Source of the DNA: an uncultured Spirochaetales bacterium
Lineage (GTDB): Bacteria; Spirochaetota; Spirochaetia; Sphaerochaetales; Sphaerochaetaceae
Assembly: GCA_947306375.1 (NCBI GenBank)
Contig: CAMZGJ010000010.1
Coordinates: 1-14,599 of the forward strand
Length of the DNA: 14,599 bases
Reading direction: 5' to 3'
Every line of letters starts with the position of its first letter. Position 1 is the stretch's first letter. The notes below the pieces were generated by a model, which saw only the letters and a program-made list of their open reading frames with translations, was not told where the DNA came from and searched no databases. This document shows, one piece after another, positions 4,996-12,342 of this stretch. A program made the translations under genes and the position numbers.

Positions 4996-6053
4996 TGCAG
5001 ATTGAAAAACTGATAGAGGATGGCAGCTTCCCTTCATGTGTCCTGTTCTCAGGCTCAAGATACTCCGGGCGTATGTATACGGCAAACAAAGTTGCAGATG
5101 CCCTGGGAAGCACGTTTGAATCAACTGTAATTCTCTCGGACAGAGACAACGTAACGCAGATTAACGCTGCGTTGAATCTGTTTGAGAAGAACAGAAACAG
5201 AGCCGCCTCCCAGTTTCTCGAGCGCACCGTAAAGGTCTACCTCAAACAGTTCCACGGCGCCCTTATGGATTCCATGAGCGCCGCCAACAGAAAGAAGTTC
5301 TCAGATGCAGGAGACTGCATGGATCTTCTTTCAGAACTTGCCTCCCTTGATGAGAAGGACATTCCCAAATGGACTGACAGAATGAGAAAGAGCCTTGAAA
5401 AGCTCTATCCGCTTTCAAAGGGCCAGGGAGTGACCGTTGGCAAGATAAGGGACATAAAGAAGTGGTGTTCCGAATATTCTGCGGACGGAAAGACCAAGAC
5501 TGTGATAATAGAGGGTCTTGAGAATGCCGGAGACTCATCATCAAACGCACTTCTCAAGATTCTTGAAGAACCTCCTGCGGATACATACTTCATACTGGTG
5601 TCACAGAATCCCGGAAGGATAGGCCAGACTGTGCTCTCCCGTGTAAGACAGTTCCATTTCAGCGACATGAGCACGGAGCAGAAGAACTCAATTCTCAGCT
5701 CCCTGTTCGTTGATCCGAATGCCCATGAGGACCTTGAATCCTTCTTCATAACAATGAGCGGTGCTGATGATGAGCTTCTTCACCGCAGCGCAAGGGAAGT
5801 CTCGGAGGGCAAAGACCCGCAGTTCCCGGCTCTTGTAAAGGAGCTTGAGAGAACAGGCATGTGGACCCGTTTCTACAGCCTGCTTGTCCGTGAACTGAGA
5901 AACAGACTTGAAAGCGGAGAACTTTCCGAGAGAAAATGCAGCTATCTTCTGGAGGAGATAGAAAACCATACATCAAAGGCAGCATCCTTCAACCAGGTGC
6001 CCAGGCTTACCTTTGATTTTGTTGTTTTCACCGCACTGGGGGTTGTACGTTGA
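4995..6053 (+). CDS. holB: DNA polymerase III delta-prime-like clamp-loader protein (AAA+, degenerate P-loop)
   Basis: A 352-residue protein of the clamp-loader AAA+ family. The clearest block is NALLKILEEPPADTYFIL starting at N184, followed by the sensor/arginine-finger region TVLSRVRQFHF with S215-R216 kept and the usual Cys of SRC replaced by Val. The P-loop position (SGSRYSGRMYTA, residues 19-30) lacks the GK[ST] needed for ATP binding, as expected for a delta-prime rather than a gamma/tau subunit. No zinc-binding Cys cluster is visible, and residues about 60-130 form a charged helical stretch not typical of E. coli HolB. In the family it helps load the sliding clamp on DNA. The start is ATG 4995, overlapping the cvpA stop; GTG 4992 is an alternative. 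The end overlaps the next gene by 4 bases. A dedicated treponemal clamp-loader variant is an alternative naming. Confidence 0.78.
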   Translation: MQIEKLIEDGSFPSCVLFSGSRYSGRMYTANKVADALGSTFESTVILSDRDNVTQINAALNLFEKNRNRAASQFLERTVKVYLKQFHGALMDSMSAANRKKFSDAGDCMDLLSELASLDEKDIPKWTDRMRKSLEKLYPLSKGQGVTVGKIRDIKKWCSEYSADGKTKTVIIEGLENAGDSSSNALLKILEEPPADTYFILVSQNPGRIGQTVLSRVRQFHFSDMSTEQKNSILSSLFVDPNAHEDLESFFITMSGADDELLHRSAREVSEGKDPQFPALVKELERTGMWTRFYSLLVRELRNRLESGELSERKCSYLLEEIENHTSKAASFNQVPRLTFDFVVFTALGVVR

Positions 6054-7207
6054 GCAGGTTTACTGAAAAAGCCCTGAGCAGAATTGCAAAACTCTCACCT
6101 GAGCAAATTGCCAGAATCCTGGACTCAAGAAGCAATGAACTTGCAATGAGGACGGAAATACTGGATTCCGTTAAGATGGGTTATCTTCTTGTAAACAAAG
6201 AAGGTACAGTTCTCTACATGAACAACGTTCTCTACGATCATGCAGACTGCTTCAGGAGAAAAAATACAAGTTCAATAAACGTTGAAAGGCTGTTCAGGGA
6301 CACAGGGCTTGTTAAGTTCATAAAGGGTGTTCTCATGACAGGCTCCGAGGAGGAGTACAACTACGTTCTTGAAAGAGCCTCTTACGGCAAGGCAGACATA
6401 AGGGTCTACTGGCTCCGTCCCGATCAGTCGGACCATTACATCTTCTGCTTCCATGATGTGACTGTGTTCAGAAAGATTAGGGAAGAGTATCTTAAGAATG
6501 AAAGCCTTGCAGCCATGACAACAATGGCCGCGGGAATTGCTCATGAGATAAAGAACCCCCTTGCATCCATTTCCATCTATCTCCAGATTCTTCAGAGAAA
6601 GCTCAGGGAGAACGGAGTTCTTACTGATGAGGATGCATCAAAGAGCCTTCAGGTGATAAGCGATGAGATTGAGCGCCTGAACGCCATAACCGTGGACTTC
6701 CTGTTTGCAGTAAAACCAATGAACGTAAAGCCAACCCTTGCGGATGTAAATTCAGTTGTTCTCAAGGCTGTGGCCGTTGCGGAACCTGAGGCCGCCCAGC
6801 AGGGGATTGAGCTTACAACGGACAAAGCAACAAGTCTTCCCAACGTGGAGATTGACGTAAATCTCATAGAACAGAGCATACTCAACCTCATAAGAAATGC
6901 GGTTCAGGCCATTTGTCCTGAATCCGAAGTAAAGGAAATTAAAGTGGGCACAAGGCTGGACGGAGACATGGTGCGCATAACCGTTTCAGATACCGGATGC
7001 GGAATGACGGATGAGACAATGTCAAAGATATTTGAGCCTTACTACACCACAAAGGCCGGCGGAACCGGACTGGGACTTACCAATATCTTCAAGATAATGA
7101 AGCTTCATAACGGCAATGTCTCCGTAACATCCGAATACGGAAAGGGATCCGAGTTCACCCTCAGTCTGCCGGTTCCCAGAAGCCAGCGCTTCAGGATAGA
7201 GGCATAG
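6050..7207 (+). CDS. atoS: Cytosolic PAS-domain sensor histidine kinase, AtoS/NtrB-like
   Basis: A 385-residue sensor kinase. A PAS fold occupies about residues 28-140 (MGYLLVNKEGTVLYMNNV at its start). The HisKA dimerisation helix follows with phospho-acceptor H165 in GIAHEIKNPLA. The HATPase_c domain shows the N box (LNLIRNAVQAI), G1 (DTGCGM), the F box (FEPYYTTK) and G2 (GGTGLGL). There is no hydrophobic segment, so the protein should be soluble and sense an intracellular signal through its PAS domain. It should phosphorylate the adjacent AtoC. The start is TTG 6050, inside a TTGA overlap with the preceding stop and with a G run upstream at about 6038-6042; a later ATG would remove part of the N-terminal helix. 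The rare start and overlap suggest low, coupled translation. The ligand is not evident. Confidence 0.88.
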   Translation: MSRFTEKALSRIAKLSPEQIARILDSRSNELAMRTEILDSVKMGYLLVNKEGTVLYMNNVLYDHADCFRRKNTSSINVERLFRDTGLVKFIKGVLMTGSEEEYNYVLERASYGKADIRVYWLRPDQSDHYIFCFHDVTVFRKIREEYLKNESLAAMTTMAAGIAHEIKNPLASISIYLQILQRKLRENGVLTDEDASKSLQVISDEIERLNAITVDFLFAVKPMNVKPTLADVNSVVLKAVAVAEPEAAQQGIELTTDKATSLPNVEIDVNLIEQSILNLIRNAVQAICPESEVKEIKVGTRLDGDMVRITVSDTGCGMTDETMSKIFEPYYTTKAGGTGLGLTNIFKIMKLHNGNVSVTSEYGKGSEFTLSLPVPRSQRFRIEA

Positions 7208-7216
7208 GAGAATGAT

Positions 7217-8560
7217 ATGAAGAACACCATTCTAATTGCAGATGATGAATTGAATATAAGAAACGGGCTTATCCAGGCCGTTGAGATGGAAGGCTATGAG
7301 GGCATAGGAGCAGAAGACGGAAACAAGGCGTGGGAGATTATAAACTCACGCAATGTGGACATGGTCATAACTGATCTCAGAATGCCCGGAATGGACGGTT
7401 CAGAGCTCCTCAAGAAGATTTACACCTCCTATCCCACAGTCCCCGTAGTGGTTCTCACGGGCCACGGGACAATTGAAGATGCAGTTACGGCAATGCAGAA
7501 CGGTGCGGTGGACTTTCTTACAAAGCCCGTAAACCTGAACCACCTGTTTGTACTTATTAAAAAGAGCCTTTCCTCCAGGGATATGGCACGTAAGAATGAG
7601 GAACTTCAGGCAGAGCTGGACAGACTCAGGAGCCGTACATCCTATTCACCCCTTGTAGGAAAGAGTCCCGCCGTGCAGCGCCTCATGGACACAATTGTCC
7701 AGATTGCTCCCTCAAGGGCCTCCGTGCTTATTACCGGAGAGAGCGGAACGGGCAAGGAACTGGTTGCAGATGCAATTGTAAACTTTTCTGACAGAAAGAA
7801 TAAGAGCTTTGTTAAGGTCCACTGCGCGGCCCTTAACGATAACCTTCTGGAAAGCGAGCTCTTCGGTCATGTCAAGGGAGCCTTCACAGGAGCGGTTGCA
7901 GACAGGAAGGGCCGCTTTGAACAGGCAGACGGAGGCACTGTCTTTCTTGATGAGATAGGTGAGATTAACCAGAGCACACAGATAAAGCTTCTCAGGGTAC
8001 TTCAGGAACATGAGTTTGAGAAGGTTGGCGGAGAGAAGACAATCAAGACGGATGTCAGGATAATTGCCGCAACCAACAGAAACCTTGAGGAGGAGATAAA
8101 GGCCGGAAGGTTCAGGGAGGACCTGTACTACCGCCTGAACGTGGTAAGACTTGAGGTTCCGCCTCTCAGGGAGAGAAAGGATGACATTGCCCTTTTATCC
8201 ACACATTTTCTTAATCTCTTCAATGAGGAGAACAGAAAGAACATAACGGGATTCACGGCTCCTGCCTCAAAAGCCCTGTACAGCTATGACTGGCCGGGCA
8301 ACATAAGGGAACTGAGAAACTGCATAGAAAGCGCTGTGGTTCTTGCAAGAACTGATGTAATTGACCTTTCAGACCTTCCCCCGGCAGTAAGCAGAGCCAG
8401 AAACACGGATGAGATAGTAATCCCGCTCGGAACAACAATGGAGGAGGCGGAGAGGCAGATAATCAATGCAACTCTTGCATGGTGCAAGGGAAACAAGACC
8501 AAAACCGCCGATGTCCTTGGCCTGGGACGCAAGACAATACAGAGAAAGCTTGATGACTGA
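7217..8560 (+). CDS. atoC: NtrC-family sigma-54-dependent response regulator, AtoC-like
   Basis: A 447-residue three-domain activator. The receiver domain (1-120) has acidic D9-D10, phospho-acceptor D53 in ITDLRMPGMDG, Thr in VLTGHG and Lys in LTKP. The central AAA+ domain has Walker A GESGTGKE from residue 174, the sigma-54-contacting GAFTGA loop at 221-226, Walker B TVFLDEIGE and the RLNVVRLEVPPLRER region. The C terminus carries a Fis-type helix-turn-helix (NKTKTADVLGLGRKTIQRKL) and stops soon after it. All residues needed for sigma-54 activation appear intact. The start ATG 7217 follows AGGAG at 7206-7210. The gene overlaps dinG by 8 bases. Its DNA target is unknown; the paired dyads at 11366-11420 upstream of the sigma factor gene are an attractive candidate. 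Confidence 0.95.
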   Translation: MKNTILIADDELNIRNGLIQAVEMEGYEGIGAEDGNKAWEIINSRNVDMVITDLRMPGMDGSELLKKIYTSYPTVPVVVLTGHGTIEDAVTAMQNGAVDFLTKPVNLNHLFVLIKKSLSSRDMARKNEELQAELDRLRSRTSYSPLVGKSPAVQRLMDTIVQIAPSRASVLITGESGTGKELVADAIVNFSDRKNKSFVKVHCAALNDNLLESELFGHVKGAFTGAVADRKGRFEQADGGTVFLDEIGEINQSTQIKLLRVLQEHEFEKVGGEKTIKTDVRIIAATNRNLEEEIKAGRFREDLYYRLNVVRLEVPPLRERKDDIALLSTHFLNLFNEENRKNITGFTAPASKALYSYDWPGNIRELRNCIESAVVLARTDVIDLSDLPPAVSRARNTDEIVIPLGTTMEEAERQIINATLAWCKGNKTKTADVLGLGRKTIQRKLDD

Positions 8561-11084: not shown

Positions 11085-11414
11085 ATGAAAAGCACTTTAT
11101 GCGGCTTAATTGAGAAATACATCAATCTCATACTGGCAATTGAGGATGATGAGGACTGCAGTCCCGAATGGCTCTGCTTCTACAGAATCCAGATGACCAT
11201 ATGGATAATGCAGATGTCCGGACACTGTGACAATCTGACGCAGGCTCATGAGGTCTATACCCGTATAAAAGATGCCTGGAGTGATATGGAGTGTTATCTG
11301 AACTCTGGAAAATTCAATATTTTCAATCAAAGCAACCTCTTCAGTACCGTCTGCATAGACCATAAGGGTAAAAATGACCCGGATTTGAGGCTTGTGGAAA
11401 GACTTGGGTCATAA
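11085..11414 (+). CDS. Hypothetical protein, 109 residues
   Basis: I do not recognise this protein. It is predicted to be soluble and mostly helical, with many acidic residues (an EDDEDC patch near residue 20), several cysteines and aromatic residues, and no signal peptide, membrane segment or catalytic motif. Support for a real gene comes from the promoter 6 bases upstream, an open frame ending within 100 bp of the sigma factor gene, and an AT-rich gene-free stretch beginning after its stop. Its final 50 bases carry two dyad repeats that I read as enhancer sites for the downstream gene, so the last residues may be constrained by DNA binding. It is divergent from groES and points towards the sigma factor gene with no terminator between them. 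A role linked to that sigma factor is speculative. Confidence 0.68.
   Translation: MKSTLCGLIEKYINLILAIEDDEDCSPEWLCFYRIQMTIWIMQMSGHCDNLTQAHEVYTRIKDAWSDMECYLNSGKFNIFNQSNLFSTVCIDHKGKNDPDLRLVERLGS
11366..11380 (+). promoter_or_regulatory. Upstream dyad 1, candidate enhancer site for an NtrC-family activator
   Basis: GGGTAAAAATGACCC, an inverted repeat with GGGT/ACCC arms, inside the end of the small unknown gene. Centre 11373 is about -141 from the predicted start of the sigma factor transcript. It differs from dyad 2 at only two of 15 positions and is followed by the same GATTTG-like flank. Confidence 0.6.
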
Positions 11415-11420
11415 TGACCC
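11406..11420 (+). promoter_or_regulatory. Upstream dyad 2, candidate enhancer site for an NtrC-family activator
   Basis: GGGTCATAATGACCC is a perfect palindrome (7-bp arms around one base). It spans the stop codon of the small unknown gene. Centre 11413 is about -101 from the predicted start and exactly 40 bp from dyad 1, close to four helical turns, so both sites face the same side of the DNA. It has no T tract and a one-base loop, so it is not a terminator. Confidence 0.66.
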
Positions 11421-11486: not shown

Positions 11487-11503
11487 TTGGCATGCAACTT
11501 GCT
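11487..11503 (+). promoter_or_regulatory. Sigma-54 (-24/-12) promoter of the sigma factor gene
   Basis: TTGGCATGCAACTTGCT matches the sigma-54 consensus TTGGCACG-N4-TTGCW at all fixed positions but one (T for C). The invariant GG (11489-11490) and GC (11501-11502) are separated by exactly 10 bases. Transcription should start near 11514, one base before the ATG. A sigma-70-like -10 (TATGAT, 11506-11511) overlaps but has no convincing -35. Confidence 0.8.
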
Positions 11504-11514
11504 ACTATGATTGC

Positions 11515-12342
11515 ATGATGAAAGAAAACTCAGTTATCAGCACATATATAAATGAAATCAACAGAATCCCCCTTCTCAGCAGGGAGGAGGAAATGGAACT
11601 TGCTCTCAGGGCCAAAAAGGGTGATGAGACTGCAAGGGCAAGGCTTCTTGAAGCCAATTCCAGATTTGTAGTAAGCATTGCAAAGAAGTACCAGAACAGG
11701 GGACTTCCACTTGAAGACCTTATCTCAGAAGGCAATATTGGTCTTATAACCGCATTGGACAAGTTTGAGCCGGAAACGGGGAACCACTTCATAAGTTATG
11801 CAGTATGGTGGATCAGACAGTCCATTCTCAAGGCAATAGGGGACAAGTCCAGAATGATAAGACTTCCCATGAACAAGAATACTGATTTTCTTCAGGTTCA
11901 GGCTGCAAAGGCAAGACTTGAGACTTCCGGTGAGGATGTTTCTTTGGAGGATATTGCAAAGGAATGCTCCATGTCTGAAGAGGATGTGAAGGAGCTTCTT
12001 GGTTATGCCTCAAACGTCACAAGCCTTGATGCTCCCCTTGCAGAGGGAGAGGGCAACACATTCGGAGATTTCATTGAAAGTCCCATTCCCGGACCTGAGG
12101 CAGAGGTAATTGAAAAATCCCTCAGTGAGTCAATAGACAGAATCCTTGATTCTCTATCGGAAAGAGAGCGCAACGTCATTATCAGAAGATACGGTCTTCA
12201 TGACACAAAACCGCTCAGCCTGAAGGAAGTGGGAGATATCTACGGCCTAACAAAGGAGAGAATCAGGCAAATAGAGAAAAAGGTCCTCAATTCCTTCAGC
12301 CAGAGCAGTGAAATACGTGAGTTGAGGGCCTATATTGCCTGA
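11515..12342 (+). CDS. Sigma-70-family RNA polymerase sigma factor, compact RpoS/RpoD-like (group 1 or 2)
   Basis: A 275-residue sigma factor without region 1.1. Region 1.2 (about residues 7-35, ISTYINEINRIPLLSREEE) is followed by region 2 (about 42-118), which includes the polymerase-binding DLISEGNIGLI and the -10-reading YAVWWIRQSILKAI. Region 3 spans about 125-200. Region 4 (about 213-265) has LSERERNVIIRRYGL and the helix-turn-helix LTKERIRQIEKKVLNSF. The near-standard region 2.4 suggests that it reads TATAAT-like -10 boxes. The size and wording match the small sigma factor of treponemes rather than the roughly 600-residue housekeeping RpoD, so an alternative or stress sigma factor is likely. 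It starts at ATG 11515 or 11518; there is no SD sequence. A sigma-54 promoter and paired enhancer dyads lie upstream, implying control by RpoN and an NtrC-type activator. Confidence 0.93.
   Translation: MMKENSVISTYINEINRIPLLSREEEMELALRAKKGDETARARLLEANSRFVVSIAKKYQNRGLPLEDLISEGNIGLITALDKFEPETGNHFISYAVWWIRQSILKAIGDKSRMIRLPMNKNTDFLQVQAAKARLETSGEDVSLEDIAKECSMSEEDVKELLGYASNVTSLDAPLAEGEGNTFGDFIESPIPGPEAEVIEKSLSESIDRILDSLSERERNVIIRRYGLHDTKPLSLKEVGDIYGLTKERIRQIEKKVLNSFSQSSEIRELRAYIA

Follow-up and report, generated by a model that had tools for sequence, protein, structure and literature searches.

A probable sigma-54 promoter with tandem candidate enhancers upstream of a compact sigma factor gene in spirochaetes outside Borrelia

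Introduction

In Borrelia burgdorferi, an NtrC-type regulator, Rrp2, acts with sigma-54 (RpoN) to switch on rpoS, a sigma-70-family gene, as described in an excerpt of the published account (PMC3037356). This RpoN-to-sigma cascade is already known as a virulence pathway. In Treponema denticola, the kinase Hpk2 is paired with Rrp2, a predicted sigma-54 activator, and the excerpted source calls Rrp2 unstudied and names no target for it (PMC12070737). Among the matches listed in a literature search over titles and the opening lines of abstracts of openly licensed papers, a scope that lies mostly outside subscription papers, no sigma-54-driven sigma gene was named in a spirochaete besides Borrelia.

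Here we analysed a 14,599-nt stretch of DNA (the window) from an uncultured spirochaete, whose genome is a 1.07-Mb draft, 58% complete. An initial annotation, made from the letters of the window, had proposed that a sigma-70-family gene in it is driven by sigma-54, by the same logic as in Borrelia. The promoter, its candidate enhancers, the presumed activator, and the relationship of the sigma factor to RpoS were compared across spirochaete genomes.

Results

The features of the window are listed in Table 1. The -24/-12 element TTGGCATGCAACTTGCT showed one mismatch to TGGCACN5TTGCW, and its GG (11489-11490) and GC (11501-11502) were separated by exactly 10 nucleotides, which confirmed the near-perfect sigma-54 promoter that the initial annotation had placed upstream of the sigma gene. 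The annotation had also judged such a match unexpected by chance. This held for the form TTGGCAYN5TTGCW, which occurred once in the whole window versus a mean of 0.01 in 200 dinucleotide shuffles, but the looser counts were much less striking: 11 window matches had at most two mismatches to the promoter consensus versus 7.7 expected, and the control density given below corresponded to approximately 0.4 GG-GC sites of at least 10/11 anywhere in 14.6 kb on both strands. Given that loose matches are common in the window, the window by itself is suggestive only, and it is conservation that settles the promoter. An exact motif match on contig C8 of the draft was dismissed because it is located within lon. 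A search for sigma-70-like promoters between 11000 and 11700 gave no match on the + strand and two matches on the - strand versus 1.9 expected; the sigma gene may have an additional housekeeping promoter.

Table 1. Features of the window that bear on the predicted sigma-54 control of the sigma gene
Feature	Position	Strand	Basis
Histidine kinase (HisKA, HATPase), probable partner of the regulator	6050..7207	+	Domain matches
NtrC-type response regulator (receiver, sigma-54 AAA+ with GAFTGA, Fis-type HTH), probable activator of the promoter	7217..8560	+	Domains; linkage to the sigma gene
Distal candidate enhancer palindrome GGGTAAAAATGACCC, 11/12 to GKGTCANNNTGACMC	11366..11380	+	Conserved upstream of sigma and hsp20 sites
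Proximal candidate enhancer palindrome GGGTCATAATGACCC, 12/12 to GKGTCANNNTGACMC, 40 bp from the distal one	11406..11420	+	Conserved upstream of sigma and hsp20 sites
Probable sigma-54 -24/-12 promoter TTGGCATGCAACTTGCT	11487..11503	+	Motif match; kept in 57/62 class genomes
Predicted transcription start, ~1 base before the ATG	11514	+	Position of the -12 element (C11502 = -12)
Compact sigma-70-family factor, 275 aa, regions 1.2 to 4, without region 1.1	11515..12342	+	Pfam/NCBIfam, trees

Conservation was scored over the 350 nt that precede the compact sigma gene corresponding to that of the window. Of 62 class genomes, 57 had a GG-N10-GC site scoring 9/11 or better there, and 53 had one scoring 10/11 or better; among the 62, the genes taken from G014 and G037 may be paralogues. 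These 62 come from 68 class genomes seen, with five Borrelia-like ones counted apart and G007 having no match. As a control, 564,694 positions of fetched sigma loci contained 55 GG-GC sites that reached 9/11 and 8 that reached 10/11, so that 0.033 and 0.005 sites, respectively, were expected per gene in a search interval of this size. Four of the five misses, all T. denticola-like, read TTAGCAT-N5-TTGCT at the same place, and the fifth, G141, has a 10/11 site just past the limit, approximately 360 nt upstream. Furthermore, a sigma-54 site was present at 5/5 Borrelia-like rpoS loci and at 18/68 loci outside the class, and in a scan by gene name, which yielded mainly Bacteroidota RpoD, 14 of the 17 spirochaete loci used (of 80) had the site. 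A T. pallidum-like genome carries the same promoter at its compact sigma gene, without a recognised enhancer. In Brachyspira-like genomes and in those of the sister sigma clade, rpoN is present, but the compact sigma gene lacks the site.

The initial annotation had made its proposal depend on retention of the element in relatives and on the presence of rpoN, and both were found. A PF04552 match of 152 bits lies on contig C31 of the draft, and rpoN was detected in 67/67 class genomes searched and in 72/75 other genomes; one of the three genomes without an rpoN match, G075 (outside the class), has a site-like match. In two Borrelia-like genomes, G104 and G133, stops or a change of frame interrupt the rpoN match, and the -24/-12 site of rpoS is kept. 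With its exact spacing, its conservation, rpoN in the draft, and two conserved palindromes spaced 40 bp apart upstream, the element is very probably a real sigma-54 promoter.

The RpoN box contacts the -24 element. It read AVRT in 5/5 T. denticola-like genomes and [AS]RRT in the 22 others read, the Arg-to-Val change being seen in the RpoN sequences L402 and L407-L410 and AG-for-GG -24 elements in the promoters L165-L168. Matches to TTRGCAYN5TTGCW carried AG in 26/46 cases from these five T. denticola-like genomes versus 0/14 from three RRT relatives, three of the AG matches in one genome being one repeated sequence and some not intergenic. At the peroxiredoxin gene, the -24 element reads GG in G188 and AG in G149, a T. 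denticola-like genome that has kept GG at its sigma gene. This covariation suggests that sigma-54 and its promoters changed together in T. denticola-like genomes, and it supports sigma-54 as the factor that would read the promoter of the sigma gene.

The element ends 11 nt before the sigma ATG at 11515, and no Shine-Dalgarno sequence was visible before this ATG; by comparison, a purine-rich sequence occupies the Shine-Dalgarno position of three other window genes, groES, the regulator gene, and ppdK. With the ATG one base past the predicted start and no Shine-Dalgarno sequence, a nearly leaderless sigma mRNA is predicted from this promoter. The same arrangement was found throughout the window's genus (3 genomes) and in G011; in most other species the predicted start would give a leader with a Shine-Dalgarno sequence ahead of the start codon.

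Upstream of the promoter, the two 15-bp palindromes, 40 bp apart, were the only window matches to GKGTCANNNTGACMC with at most one mismatch (0.12 expected); the proximal one also scored as terminator-like. A 109-codon frame without a Pfam or NCBIfam match (11085-11414) runs into both palindromes. An enhancer was called where the motif reached at least 10/12 upstream of a sigma-54 site, and this was the case at the sigma loci of 27/29 relatives, at 12/14 named loci, and at 16/33 phylum loci, sets that overlap, versus 1-2% of dinucleotide shuffles. Among the 61 class genomes with enough sequence, which exclude G141 because it has no valid enhancer anchor, 43 had at least one copy upstream of the sigma gene and 28 at least two, and neighbouring copies at class sigma genes were spaced by exactly 40 bp in 27 of 32 cases. 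The remaining 18 of the 61 had none at 10/12, some of them with the regulator (G003, G008, G153, and the T. pallidum-like G088). The Borrelia-like rpoS loci (0/5) and the T. pallidum-like locus (0/1) showed no enhancer, and 14 other-sigma loci plus two Borrelia stretches yielded one weak copy only (L458).

The motif was derived at the sigma gene and afterwards tested at other loci. At hsp20, it occurred upstream of the sigma-54 site in 27/29 loci versus 1.9% of simple shuffles (30 loci were read of 65 listed, and the 29 with a sigma-54 site entered the count), and 4 of 15 spacings were exactly 40. At pspA, it occurred upstream of the sigma-54 site in 0/22 loci (30 read of 48 listed, 22 with a sigma-54 site); the eight pspA loci without a sigma-54 site all lie outside the window's family. 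On contig C16 of the draft (L122, L313), pspA with a sigma-54 site adjoins a PspF-like activator gene on the opposite strand. Among 37 near-consensus sites in the draft, an intact GG/GC together with the enhancer was present at two, the sigma gene and hsp20; a third candidate, L128, has one weak enhancer copy and no GG and lies within a reading frame. T. denticola-like genomes also carry sites ahead of the second sigma gene, of hsp20 (by eye), and of genes encoding a Clp ATPase, a peroxiredoxin, and a Dps-sized ferritin-like protein; sigma-54-like sites at stress genes of this group are L427, L428, L454, and L430. A protein-stress switch is the most likely role of the circuit, given that the sigma gene and hsp20 both have the enhancer and a sigma-54 site. 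A host-phase regulon, which the initial annotation mentions for Borrelia, was unsupported here; the common target hsp20 points to protein stress.

To act, sigma-54 polymerase requires an activator. The window encodes a candidate, an NtrC-type sigma-54 activator with PF00072, PF00158, PF02954, and GAFTGA in its translation, whose best NCBIfam matches include ZraR and AtoC. Its gene lies upstream of the sigma gene, on the same strand and within 15 kb, in 29 of the 36 genomes that have both on one contig, and is unlinked to it in 7; in 15 of the 51 genomes tabulated, the two are on different contigs. This table covers 51 of 65 genomes and leaves out four Borrelia-like ones, six outside the class, and G007, G013, G014, and G037, the last four because of no sigma match, a weak regulator match, or a doubtful gene. 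In two of the six genomes outside the class, G043 and G047, the regulator lies 266 and 346 bp before a sigma gene. In G004, the gene order is kinase, regulator, helicase, and sigma as in the window, both helicases matching PF13307. The HTH of the regulator was similar in 33/36 loci, and the other three were unparsed; the regulator at one of the 33 loci, C103, is another one, and its helix differs. The HTH is similar in the Borrelia-like and T. pallidum-like regulators as well, yet their sigma genes showed no enhancer, and the HTH and the enhancer are thus not strictly coupled. Judged from domains and linkage, the window regulator is likely the activator of the promoter.

Alternatively, the promoter and enhancer could be real but bound by one or more other activators, for example the C103 response regulator. 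The draft does encode three sigma-54 activators (on C10, on C103, and a PspF-like one beside pspA) and is just 58% complete, and G013 (88% complete) has the site and the enhancer but no sigma-54 activator at E 1e-20 and only a weak match to the window regulator, hence no clear orthologue of it. The linkage in 29/36 genomes, together with an HTH that is similar wherever readable and unlike that of C103, makes this alternative unlikely. The activator requirement of sigma-54 polymerase and the conserved candidate enhancer suggest that expression of the sigma factor would be conditional, and the view of it as a conditional regulator in the initial annotation is a fair one.

The sigma factor itself matched Pfam regions 1.2, 2, 3, and 4. 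The source genome also has a separate long RpoD (679-codon frame), so the window sigma, with RpoD-like regions 1.2 to 4 beside it, is an extra, group 2-like factor. Against proteobacterial RpoS (NCBIfam TIGR02394) it scored 259.9 bits, under the curated cut-off of 378.7. In region 2.4, the window clade carries L in place of the T of RpoD, and its promoter choice therefore probably differs from that of RpoD. The G020 sigma gene (L386) matches in two pieces of one open frame, with approximately 38 internal residues apparently missing.

An orthologous relationship between the window sigma and Borrelia RpoS was first assumed from the common promoter and was dropped on a tree that included RpoD. 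This 49-row tree put the window sigma in a clade of its own (90/77), next to a sister clade without the promoter site, and joined Borrelia RpoS to a second compact sigma family (100/97). An AU test rejected the union of Borrelia RpoS with the window clade (p=0.0002; 0.018 when the sister clade was included), some rows being long branches and the test groups having been chosen after earlier trees. Region 4.2, the -35 reading helix, agrees with separate families, reading ISxET[VI]R[QK] in the second family and Borrelia RpoS and LTKERIRQ in the window sigma. Neither clade, with its long-branch caveat, nor helix residues thus place the window sigma with RpoS, of which it is probably not an orthologue.

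These data bear on the reading that the locus would be the very Rrp2-RpoN-RpoS pathway of Borrelia, in which lineage the orthologous sigma factor evolved fast. The promoter type is identical, Borrelia rrp2 and rpoS lie approximately 7 kb apart on one strand, and a tree without RpoD, which is ambiguous, put Borrelia RpoS nearest the window clade (91/69); however, the tree with RpoD, the AU test, and region 4.2 all separate the two sigma factors, rpoS lies upstream of rrp2 in Borrelia, the reverse of the order in the window, and the enhancer is missing at all five Borrelia-like loci, which renders this reading very improbable. Thus, a sigma-54 promoter ahead of a sigma-70-family gene outside Borrelia was supported, as the initial annotation had proposed, but not the notion that the sigma factor is the same. 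The description of the organism as treponeme-like was loose: its nearest relatives form family f1, and the T. denticola- and T. pallidum-like genomes belong to f18.

Among other sigma genes scored, a GG-GC site of at least 9/11 was found in 10/16, the AG form in 1, and none in 5; the stretch scanned was defined by a residue pattern, so that sites can be missed, as with G037, which scored none yet has a 10/11 site, and G014 is both among the 10 and among the 62 class genomes. Sigma-54 would thus drive at least two kinds of sigma factor in the class. Members of the second compact sigma family with sigma-54 sites are L460-L466, L471-L473, and L476.

Discussion

We propose that, on a presumed stress signal, the kinase probably phosphorylates the NtrC-type regulator, which would bind the 11366 and 11406 palindromes, spaced by 40 bp along one DNA face, and whose ATPase would open the sigma-54 polymerase waiting at the promoter. 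Transcription from approximately 11514 would then give a nearly leaderless mRNA for the compact sigma-70-family factor, which would redirect polymerase to genes of its own. Taken as a whole, this model of a working sigma-54 promoter, a kinase/NtrC-type pair, tandem enhancers, and a stress switch of sigma factor plus hsp20 appears to us quite probable. That the motif is a chance match, or that an ordinary housekeeping promoter is accompanied by palindromes serving as a terminator or operator, would suit the common loose matches and the terminator-like proximal palindrome but is extremely improbable given the conserved sequence and place, the exact 40-bp spacing, the sharing of the enhancer with hsp20 and not pspA, and the lack of a sigma-70-like match on the + strand between 11000 and 11700.

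More broadly, the locus might represent an old spirochaete module, in which one two-component system works through tandem enhancers spaced by 40 bp on hsp20 and a group 2 sigma gene, a second sigma family came separately under sigma-54 and led to Borrelia RpoS, and T. denticola-like sigma-54 changed its reading of the -24 element (Arg to Val, with GG relaxed to AG or GG); we regard this history as evenly poised between right and wrong. If the cascade is true, such cascades are widespread in the class and act on two sigma families, here tied to protein stress, and the Borrelia pathway is one special case. The enhancer would moreover define a small and directly testable regulon.

Several known systems resemble this locus in part. 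In the tree, the window sigma is closest, among outside sequences, to the compact RpoD proteins of Bacteroidota and Gemmatimonadota, which are similar in length and in region 2.4; unlike in those groups, the window genome has a long RpoD too. Sigma-54 control of stress genes recalls E. coli PspF-pspA and ZraSR, pspA having a sigma-54 site in 22/30 loci read here, and the palindromic ZraR site is presumably similar to the window enhancer. Those E. coli systems, however, act on envelope or chaperone genes and are not known to drive a sigma factor, and the window enhancer is missing at pspA (0/22). T. denticola Hpk2/Rrp2 likewise pairs a kinase with a predicted sigma-54 activator, and T. denticola-like genomes carry a close relative of the window regulator; there, unlike in the window, this regulator is unlinked to the sigma gene, and AG stands in the -24 element of 4/5 genomes. 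The closest parallel is Borrelia burgdorferi Rrp2-RpoN-RpoS, which shares an NtrC-type regulator, a predicted activator here, and a -24/-12 promoter at a sigma-70-family gene. In contrast to Borrelia, where no enhancer was found at rpoS, the window has tandem candidate enhancers and a sigma factor from another family, and in the window's relatives hsp20 carries the same enhancer.
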